From Microcella pacifica (GTDB lineage: Bacteria; Actinomycetota; Actinomycetes; Actinomycetales; Microbacteriaceae): a stretch of DNA of 64,000 nucleotides. The translations under genes and the position numbers were made by a program. The notes below the pieces were generated by a model that worked only from the letters and a program-made list of their open reading frames with translations, searched no databases and was not told where the DNA came from. Positions 18,104 through 22,140 of this stretch are shown one piece after another; within the stretch, counting starts at the first letter, position 1; every line of letters starts with the position of its first letter. The stretch lies in assembly GCF_009371975.2 (NCBI RefSeq), contig NZ_VIKT02000009.1:1-64000 (forward strand), read 5' to 3'.

Positions 18104-19429
18104 CTAGAACAGGCTGATCGGCTTGACGATGTCGGCGTAGATCAGGAGCGCGCTCATGACGCCGAGCACGACGACCACGGCGAGCGTGATCGGCACGAGC
18201 TTGGCCGTGTCGACCGGCCCGGGGTCGGGCTTGCCGAAGAGCGCCCACAAGCGCCGGCGCGCACCCTCGAACAGTGCCCCCGCGATGTGTCCGCCGTCGA
18301 GCGGCAGGAGCGGGATGAGGTTGAAGACGAAGAGGGCGACGTTGAGCGAGGCGAGGAGACCCGTGAGCGCGGAGATGCGCTCGACAACGGGTAGCGTGTC
18401 GATGCTCGCGATCTCGCCCGCGATGCGGCCGACACCCACGACGCTGATCGGGCCGTTGGGGTCGCGCTCCCCCGGGCCGAACGCCGCCTCGGCGACGTCG
18501 ATCATGCGCTGCGGGAGCGTGAGGATGATCTCGCCGACCCGCACGATGTTGTCGCCCACCGCGGGGAGGACCTCGCTCGCGGGCTGCTGCGCGGTCTCCA
18601 AGGCTGCGCCGATGCCGATGAACCCGACCTGCTGCGTGAGCAGCTCGCCGTCCGGCCCCTCGACGAGCTGGCCGCGATCGTCGATCACGTAGCGCTCCGT
18701 CAGTAGCGGCGTGAGCGTGGTCGACACGGTCGAGCCGCCGCGGTCGAGGGTGAAGGCGAGGGGCTCACCGGCCGCGTCGCGCACCGTCGTGAGCACGGCA
18801 TCCCAGTCATCGATGGGGGCGCCGTCGATCGCGACGATGCGATCCCCCGGCAGCAGCCCCGCCTCCGCGCCCGGGGCGAGCGGGTCGCCCGGGGCGCACT
18901 CCTGACGCTCGCTCGTCGCCGGTAGCACGCACTCGTTGACGCTGCCGATCGTCGTCGAGGGCTGCGCGATGCCGAAGCCCATGAGCACGACCGCGTACAG
19001 CACGATCGCGATGACGAGGTTCATGAGCGGGCCGCCGAGCATGATGATGATGCGCTTCCACACCGCCAGCCGGTAGAACGTGCGGTGCTCCTCCCCCTCG
19101 ACGATCGTGTCGGCGGAGGCCGAGCGGGCGTCCTGCACGAGGGTCTGGAAGAAGCCCGTGGTCGCATAGCGCTCCGCCGAGCCCGCGGCGGGCGGATACA
19201 TGCCCGCCATCGAGATGTAGCCGCCGAGCGGGATCCACTTGAACCCGTACTCCGTGCCGCCGCGCCGCCACGAGACGATCGTGCGCCCGAAGCCGACCAT
19301 GAACTGACCCACGCGCACGCCGAAGATCTTCGCCGGCACGAAGTGCCCGAGCTCGTGCAGCGCGATCGACACCACGAGGCCCACGACGACGACGAGGATG
19401 CCGACGATGTACAGCAGCACGGTCTCCAC
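18104..19429 (-). CDS. rseP: Site-2 (RIP) membrane metalloprotease, RseP/Rip1 family
   Basis: 441-residue intramembrane zinc protease. HELGH (25-29) sits in the first helix, a PDZ domain spans about 190-280 (PGDRIVAIDGAPIDDW), and FNLIPLLPLDGGH near 360-372 holds the second active-site motif. Such enzymes cut anti-sigma factors and other membrane substrates. GTG 19429 has TAGAGT eight bases upstream and no clear Shine-Dalgarno. It follows dxr by 25 bases, the usual actinobacterial pairing. Confidence 0.94.
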   Translation of the reverse strand: METVLLYIVGILVVVVGLVVSIALHELGHFVPAKIFGVRVGQFMVGFGRTIVSWRRGGTEYGFKWIPLGGYISMAGMYPPAAGSAERYATTGFFQTLVQDARSASADTIVEGEEHRTFYRLAVWKRIIIMLGGPLMNLVIAIVLYAVVLMGFGIAQPSTTIGSVNECVLPATSERQECAPGDPLAPGAEAGLLPGDRIVAIDGAPIDDWDAVLTTVRDAAGEPLAFTLDRGGSTVSTTLTPLLTERYVIDDRGQLVEGPDGELLTQQVGFIGIGAALETAQQPASEVLPAVGDNIVRVGEIILTLPQRMIDVAEAAFGPGERDPNGPISVVGVGRIAGEIASIDTLPVVERISALTGLLASLNVALFVFNLIPLLPLDGGHIAGALFEGARRRLWALFGKPDPGPVDTAKLVPITLAVVVVLGVMSALLIYADIVKPISLF

Positions 19430-19454: not shown

Positions 19455-20534
19455 TCAGCGTGAGCCGATGAGCGCGTCGGCCTCGGCGCGCGCCCAGAGC
19501 TCGGCCCCGAGAACGCCCTCGAGGGTCATCTCGTGCGGCTCGTGGCGGTCGACGACCGCCCGCACGGTGTCGAGAATTTCGAGGTAGCCCAGCGCCCCGT
19601 CGTGGAAGGCGTGCACGGCCTGCTCGTTGGCCGCATTGAACACCGCCGGGAAGGTCGCCCCCGCCGTACCGACCTGCTTGGCGAGCGCGACGGCCGGGAA
19701 GGCCGCCTCATCGAGCGGCTCGAACGTCCACGTGCTCGCCGTGCTCCAGTCGAGCGGCGCACCGACGCCGGCGACGCGGTGCGGCCAGTCGAGGCCCAGG
19801 GAGATCGGCAGGCGCATGTCGGGCGGCGAGCACTGCGCGATCGTCGAGCCGTCGACGAACTCGACCATCGAGTGCACGATCGACTGCGGGTGCACGGTGA
19901 CGTCGATGCGCTCGTAGGGCACGTCGAAGAGCAGGTGCGCCTCGATCACCTCGAGTCCCTTGTTGACGAGCGTGGCCGAGTTGGTCGTGATGACCCGACC
20001 CATGTCCCACGTCGGGTGCGCGAGCGCCTGCGCGGGCGTGACATCGGCGAGCTCGGCCCGCGAGCGACCCCGGAACGGCCCGCCGCTCGCCGTGAGCACA
20101 AGCCGGCGCACCTCGTGGTGCTCGCCCGCGAGCAGCGCCTGCGCGATCGCGGAGTGCTCGCTGTCGACGGGAACAATCTGGCCCGGCGCCGCGATATCGG
20201 TCACGAGGCTGCCTCCGACGATGAGGCTCTCCTTGTTGGCGAGGGCCAGGATGCGCCCCGCGCGCAGCGCCGCGAGCGTCGGCGCGAGACCGACCGACCC
20301 GGTGATGCCGTTGAGCACGACATCGCAGGCGACATCTCGCACGAGCTCGGCCGCGGCCTCGGCGCCGAGGGCGACGTGCTGCACGGAGTGGGCTCGCGCC
20401 TGCTGCTCCACGAGCTCGCGGTTGCGGCCGGCCGCGAGCCCGACGACGCGGAAGCGCTCGGGGTTCGCGGCGATGACCTCGAGGGCCTGCACCCCGATGG
20501 ACCCCGTGGAGCCGAGGACAATGATGTCGCGCAT
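19455..20534 (-). CDS. dxr: 1-deoxy-D-xylulose 5-phosphate reductoisomerase
   Basis: 359-residue enzyme of the second MEP-pathway step (DXP to MEP, NADPH). [14 protein letters not shown] (residues 7-20) binds the cofactor; [20 protein letters not shown] (metal ligands) and [16 protein letters not shown] are intact. The start at ATG 20534 gives the canonical [12 protein letters not shown]-terminus. It lies 31 bases after the broken FKBP gene and 25 before rseP. Confidence 0.96.
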
Positions 20535-20565: not shown

Positions 20566-21534
20566 TCAGCGCGTGCCGAGGATGTCGACGACGAAGACGA
20601 TCGTGTCCTCCGCGCCGATCGAACCGTCGGGCGTGCCGCCCTGCGGGCCGTAGCCGAGCTCGGGCGGGATGATCGCGATGACCTGCGAGCCGACGGTCTG
20701 GCCGACGAGCGCATCGCGGAAGCCCTGGATGACACCGTCGGTCGGGAAGGTCGCGGGGGCGCCGCGCTGCCAGCTGGAGTCGAAGACCTCGCCCGTGTTC
20801 TAGGTGATGCCCGTGTAGTGCACGGTGACCTCGGCACCCTCCTCGACGACGGGGCCGTCGCCCTCGATGAGCACGGCGAGGCCGAACTCGGCGGGCGGCG
20901 CCTCGTCGGGGATGACGATCGTGGGCGCGCCGTCCTCGGCGAGCGTGACCTCGGGGAAGCCCTCGGGCGCCTCGCCCGCCGCGCCCTCCGCGCGGTCGAG
21001 GGGCGCGTCGAGAATCTCGACGACGTCGATCACGAAGACGAGGGACTCGGTGCCCGCGAGCTGCAGCTCGGGGATGCCCGCCTCGCCGAAGCCCTCGGCG
21101 GGCGGGATGACGCCGGCGATGCGATCGCCGGGGGCGGCGCACTCGAGCAGGAGGGAGAAGCCGACGAGCTGCTCGCTCGCCGTGTCGATCGGGAAGGCCT
21201 CGGCGTTCTCGCCCGTGAAGCCCGTCGACGCGAGCTCGTCACCCGTCTCGCCGTTGAAGACGGTGTACTCGATGAGCACGGTGTCGCCGTTCTCGGCGCG
21301 ATCGCCCTCGCCCTCGGTCAGCAGTGAGCGCTGCGTCGAGTCGGCCTCGAGCGGCGCCTCGAAGCTGATCTCGGGCGCCGAGCCTGCGGCACCGTCGACC
21401 GCGACGGCCTGCGAGGCGTCACCCGGCTCGACGCAGCCCTCGGGCGCGGCGTCGGTCGAACCATCGCCGGGGGTACAGGCGGCGAGGGAGACGAGAAGGC
21501 CCGCGGTCAGCAGGGCGAAGGGAGTACGGCGCAC
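20566..21534 (-). pseudogene. FKBP-type peptidyl-prolyl isomerase lipoprotein interrupted by an in-frame TAG
   Basis: Secreted lipoprotein with signal peptide and lipobox LAAC. A first, divergent FKBP-like domain covers about residues 70-175 and a canonical FKBP domain begins near 215. Inside the second domain, codon 245 is TAG (minus strand 20802-20800): VHYTGIT, stop, [10 protein letters not shown]. After the stop the same frame runs on for 77 perfectly FKBP-like residues ([27 protein letters not shown]) to TGA at 20566. Relatives often have Trp at this site, so one G-to-A change (TGG to TAG) explains it. It could be a sequencing error, a recent pseudogene or a readthrough codon. GTG 21534 has GGAG upstream. 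Confidence 0.8.
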
Positions 21535-21596: not shown

Positions 21597-22100
21597 CTAC
21601 AGTCTTGGCGCCTCCTGCGCACCGGCGATGAGCGTGACCGGCTCGTGCGCCACGGGGAAGCTCACCGAGTTGGCGATGAAGCACAGCTCGCTCGCCCGCT
21701 CGTGCAGATGCGCGGCCCGGCGCGCATCCTCATCGCTGTGATGGGCGGCGAGCGTCACGCGCGGCCGCAGCGTGGCCTCGATGAGCCGACCGCCCTCGCC
21801 CTGCTGCTTGAGGGTGCCGCTCGCCTCGTCGCGGTAGTCGACGACGACGAGGCCGTTGCTCGCGGCGACGTGCAGGTAGCTCAGCAGGTGGCACTGGCTG
21901 AGCGCAGCGACGACGAGCTCTTCGGGGTTCCAGCGCTCGGCGTCACCGCGGAAGGTGCGATCGCTCGACCCCTCGATCTCGTGGGACTTGCCCGCGGCGA
22001 CGATGCGGTGGTCGCGACCGTAGGAACGGTACGTGGCCGTGCCCTCGCCTCGATTGCCGGTCCACTGGATGCTCACCGCATAGCCGTGCTCAGTGCTCAT
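21597..22100 (-). CDS. OsmC family protein
   Basis: 167-residue OsmC/Ohr-fold protein; the family reduces organic hydroperoxides with two cysteines. The pattern fits: AERWNPEELVVAALSQCHLLSYLH around residue 70-93 holds the first Cys (given here in part), and ASELCFIANSVSFPV holds the second. The ATG at 22100 has GAGAGGG upstream; the frame opens earlier but without support. It is divergent from gabT across 49 bases and likely heads the line toward the FKBP gene, dxr and rseP. Confidence 0.87.
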   Translation of the reverse strand: MSTEHGYAVSIQWTGNRGEGTATYRSYGRDHRIVAAGKSHEIEGSSDRTFRGDAERWNPEELVVAALSQCHLLSYLHVAASNGLVVVDYRDEASGTLKQQGEGGRLIEATLRPRVTLAAHHSDEDARRAAHLHERASELCFIANSVSFPVAHEPVTLIAGAQEAPRL

Positions 22101-22134
22101 GTCGTGCCCTCTCAAGCCGATCAGTGTCGCGGAG

Positions 22135-22140
22135 TACACT
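22135..22140 (+). promoter_or_regulatory. Candidate -10 box of gabT
   Basis: TACACT nine bases before the gabT ATG, implying a leader of two or three bases at most. A -35 is not clear. Confidence 0.4.

Follow-up and report, generated by a model that had tools for sequence, protein, structure and literature searches.

An in-frame TAG codon in the second FKBP domain of a conserved Microcella pacifica lipoprotein gene: a probable recent nonsense mutation

Introduction

In the genome of Microcella pacifica, a gene for an FKBP-type lipoprotein is broken by a single TAG, beyond which the frame continues with a sequence typical of its family. Whether this amber codon reflects a recent mutation, a fault in the assembly or a codon that is read through was left undecided by the first-pass annotation. 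In-frame stop codons are common in conserved bacterial genes and have been described before (Belinky et al. 2021, PMC7918605), and a limited search of titles and abstracts found no literature on the stop in this FKBP gene. The window analysed here covers 64 kb from the beginning of contig C62 (NZ_VIKT02000009.1), one of the 62 contigs of a draft genome of 2.72 Mb, and the relevant features of this window are collected in Table 1. The explanation that we favour, with a probability of about 0.64, is that a nonsense mutation specific to this strain or species has very recently turned TGG into TAG at codon 245, which would truncate the second FKBP domain.

An interrupted FKBP gene next to dxr

Read on the minus strand, the gene starts with GTG at 21532-21534, ends with TGA at 20566-20568, and has a GC content of 73%. 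A lipobox, LAAC, was recognised by eye in its N-terminus, and the TAG, found where the first-pass annotation had placed it, directly follows the peptide VHYTGIT. Inspection of the whole frame revealed neither a second stop nor a frameshift, in agreement with the earlier claim that the gene bears no other damage, to which a change of codon 244 from AAC to ACC must now be added. There is no in-frame ATG, GTG or TTG among the 77 downstream codons, and re-initiation within the FKBP frame is therefore unlikely.

Table 1. Position of the interrupted FKBP gene, its parts and its neighbours in the window
Feature	Position	Strand	Basis
FKBP-type lipoprotein gene, TAG-interrupted, 323 codons including the final TGA	20566..21534	-	reading frame, Pfam
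In-frame TAG, codon 245	20800..20802	-	frame reading and aligned relatives
Codon 244, ACC (Thr)	20803..20805	-	AAC (Asn) in 20/20 aligned genus orthologues
Part that ordinary translation would yield, 244 aa: signal/lipobox region, first (divergent) FKBP domain and opening strands of the second	20803..21534	-	
Post-TAG part, 77 codons and TGA: remainder of the second FKBP domain	20566..20799	-	
dxr (1-deoxy-D-xylulose 5-phosphate reductoisomerase)	19455..20534	-	name from reading of the sequence
rseP-like site-2 protease gene, after dxr	18104..19429	-	name from reading of the sequence
OsmC-like gene, upstream of the FKBP gene	21597..22139	-	name from reading of the sequence

The start of dxr lies 31 nt past the FKBP TGA, on the same strand, and this adjacency was found in all 29 relatives tested. 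The named relatives come from Microcella, Yonghaparkia and further Microbacteriaceae, and the highest identity among them is 64%. Within the same genome, contig C12 carries a full-length, stop-free FKBP paralogue (43% identical), as well as a shorter FKBP-like match.

Domains and fold of the read-through protein

The Pfam FKBP_C profile (PF00254) matched the read-through protein (92.3 bits) in two places, with the best match at residues 230-318. Residues 246-322 alone, the 77 residues previously described as FKBP-like, were also recognised (54.9 bits, E 1.1e-14), and residues 1-244 alone gave a weak match (27.9 bits, E 3e-6), the read-through protein and both parts scoring above the gathering cut-off of 21.1 bits. 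The read-through sequence was modelled with AlphaFold (pLDDT 88.3), and Foldseek matched the model to FKBP52, FKBP51, MIP, FkpA and FKBP12 (best E 2.6e-14); the FKBP fold is thereby predicted for the read-through sequence only.

In this model, the TAG falls where strand 235-244 ends, and the first strands of the second domain, at about residues 218-244, precede the stop. Truncation would remove strands 250-253, 261-264, 284-289 and 312-321 of that domain, together with helix 270-276. The earlier suggestion that only the divergent first domain would be left is correct in that this domain is retained; it overlooked the opening strands of the second, which would stay as well. In an alignment of 33 rows, the first of which is the gene itself with its TAG taken as Trp, Trp245 is among the invariant columns, as are Y240, F251 and D252; the last two, which we take to be active-site residues going by FKBP12, lie beyond the stop. 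The second domain is the better conserved of the two FKBP domains.

Among solved chains, the one closest to the second domain (residues 204-321) was Mycobacterium tuberculosis FKBP12 (6wbu, E 1.9e-23), in which a Trp also occupies the column of codon 245. This protein is an intact single domain, whereas that of Microcella pacifica has two domains and is interrupted. Closer at hand are the two-domain FKBP lipoproteins of the Microbacteriaceae, whose genus orthologues have equal length, the same domain order and a dxr neighbour; here alone is the frame broken, at Trp245, an invariant residue of the second domain.

Codon 245 in relatives and the age of the stop

The FKBP orthologue is present in all 26 genus genomes and contains a stop in one of them, that of Microcella pacifica itself. 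A first set of 32 loci comprised the gene under study, two paralogues from the same genome and 29 relatives, of which 28 have TGG at codon 245; the remaining one has CTC at this position and a Trp two codons upstream. In a second set, which partly overlaps the first, TGG was found in 32 of 32 relatives. It was also found in G003, the nearest genome (95% protein identity). These comparisons support the first-pass proposal that codon 245 would derive from TGG by a one-base change. More broadly, no other TAG was seen among the matches listed from a search of 80 genomes and from a search of 299 family genomes, 229 of which matched the FKBP protein at E 1e-50, with part of these matches listed; at least two distant homologues with a TGA were present among the matches listed from the 80-genome search. 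The locus shares one feature with recent nonsense pseudogenes, a nonsense change private to one lineage in a gene that is otherwise intact.

Compared with G003, the sequence before the stop (codons 1-244) has a dS of 0.200 and a dN of 0.023, and codons 246-322 have a dS of 0.148, a dN of 0.018 and an omega of 0.12. No relaxation of selection after the stop was detected in codons 246-322. Only three amino acids in this stretch differ from G003, at positions 249, 280 and 292. At the first two, the interrupted gene has the commonest residue of the genus, and at position 292 the Glu/Asp difference is ambiguous, so that at most one replacement is to be assigned to its own branch after the stop, against about 12.65 expected had the whole branch been neutral (Poisson P 4e-5). 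On 95% bounds for either 0 or 1 event, the stop is estimated to be younger than roughly 24-37% of this branch. The absence of decay suggests a young stop, a stretch that is still translated, or a stop that does not exist in the strain. These three cannot be told apart by the purifying signal in codons 246-322, because nearly all of it would predate the stop.

Decoding of UAG

The data at hand indicate that UAG is read as an ordinary stop in this organism. Release factor 1 is encoded by an intact prfA (open frame of 360 aa, GTG start); a TAG that appeared to lie inside the prfA match turned out to terminate the preceding gene, identified from its sequence as rho, immediately ahead of the prfA GTG. 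TAG terminates 29 of the 76 heuristically predicted genes of contig C62, the truncated FKBP frame being counted in. With RF1 present and TAG not avoided as a stop, there is no sign of a genome-wide reassignment of UAG. A CTA anticodon was absent from the 45 tRNA matches in the genome, 44 of which were assigned by ARAGORN, and the 45th has CCC in its anticodon loop. That last match, at 255-320 of contig C17, was considered as a suppressor tRNA and rejected on its Rfam alignment (anticodon loop UUCCCAA, short T arm); it is probably a degenerate glycine-type tRNA copy. Its score is low (38.2 bits) and no ARAGORN gene corresponds to it. A profile search for PylS_Cterm returned no match in this genome; among 14 genomes used as controls, one scored above the cut-off. 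Programmed or recoded readthrough likewise finds no support, the stop being unconserved between species and neither a CTA tRNA nor PylS having been found.

Weighing mutation, error and readthrough

A consensus or assembly error, in which the strain would have a sense codon at position 245 and an intact gene, is the foremost alternative, less probable than the mutation and still to be taken seriously. It is favoured by the draft state of the genome, the restriction of the change to a single genome, the undecayed downstream frame, the high GC content of the gene and the second private change at codon 244. A noisy assembly, however, should leave more faults, frameshifts above all, and the genome is estimated to be 99.99% complete with 0.03% contamination. 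Contig C62 is collinear with G003; 75 of the 83 predicted G003 ORFs were matched in it, and all 76 of its ORFs were matched in G003. Stops were flagged in six of the 75 G003 ORFs as found in C62, among them the FKBP interruption (position 256 of 333), and in three of the 76 C62 ORFs as found in G003. The idea of a noisy contig was rejected, as the other five flagged stops were judged to reflect shifted ends, start codons set too far upstream or false ORFs: two fall within the final 2-4 codons of their ORFs and two within the opening 9-25, and one lies 22 residues from the end of a spurious-looking ORF. These verdicts were reached from position near ORF ends and from composition, short of a full annotation, and on this basis the FKBP TAG is judged to be the only real interruption among the about 75 ORFs compared with G003, which speaks against the error. 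A frameshift in rho relative to G003 was only apparent and disappeared with a likely later start. The rho gene (contig C62, about 71595-73721) encodes a long low-complexity N-terminal region rich in N, Q, G and R, which differs in length between this genome and G003, with 23 gap positions in the alignment.

The changes at codons 244 and 245, three bases apart, could have arisen through a single multi-base mutation or through two mutations, or could stem from a local consensus error. The private change beside the TAG counts to a limited extent against a nonsense mutation, a consensus error fitting equally well. Little weight can be placed on it, because adjacent differences are frequent and because the site is variable outside the close group: 31 adjacent second-position differences were seen between this genome and G003 where 4.8 would be expected if they were independent (72 ORFs, 28,480 codons), and some other relatives have Ser, Val, Ala or Leu at codon 244. 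A further reason is that no private change at genus-invariant columns is left in the FKBP gene once the comparison extends to the most distant members of the genus; three such changes were found in gabT. Also to be set against the nonsense mutation is the expectation that loss of the gene should cost something, since every one of the 26 genus genomes retains it and it stands in a string with dxr, probably an essential gene.

Leaky or regulated readthrough, in which a near-cognate tRNA would decode the TAG at a low level and the stop would act as a brake on expression, was one of the options raised by the first-pass annotation and is now considered unlikely. The downstream codons do look as if under purifying selection, and according to Belinky et al. 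(PMC7918605) bacteria commonly carry in-frame stops with dN/dS below 1, which tend not to last long. The FKBP case resembles those described there in having a single in-frame TAG in a well-conserved gene, a low dN/dS and no other damage. In that study, however, the stop had to occur in two or more species, a filter that the FKBP TAG, confined to one genome, does not pass. The TAG has no counterpart in any other genus genome or among the other family matches listed, the selection signal would almost wholly predate the stop, and RF1 is intact in an organism in which neither an amber tRNA nor PylS was found; the lack of change after the stop does not show readthrough. A variant of this idea, a transient brake codon at which near-cognate decoding (e.g. 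by tRNA-Trp CCA or tRNA-Gln CTG, both present in the genome) would tune down FKBP and polarity would tune dxr, seems more doubtful still. Least credible of all is a selected truncation, whereby a short lipoprotein would still carry out a function of its first domain and the strain would be favoured by losing the second. The first domain is strongly conserved (omega 0.04 for codons 70-172 between this genome and G003), but the other genus orthologues are all uninterrupted and the leftover part of the second domain is expected to be unstable. With no downstream decay and the stop in no other genus genome, the evidence bears out the remaining option of the first-pass annotation, a very recent event.

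Predicted consequences for the lipoprotein and the neighbouring dxr

Under a nonsense mutation, RF1 would terminate translation at the TAG and yield a lipoprotein of 244 residues, with the divergent first domain and a second one that is broken and presumably inactive. The loss may be covered by the full-length paralogue on contig C12, and Rho-dependent polarity over the 231 untranslated nucleotides before dxr could reduce the expression of that gene. We infer each of these steps, from the reality of the base and the truncation of the product to the unfolding of the second domain, compensation by the paralogue and polarity on dxr.

Regarded in this way, the TAG is an ordinary event, since it lacks the conservation across species that would set it apart. 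It matters mainly for annotation, in which this genome's copy of the gene ought to be flagged as interrupted. Should the amber codon be both real and read through, it would represent a dated, very young case of a conserved gene tolerating an in-frame stop, ahead of the probably essential dxr.
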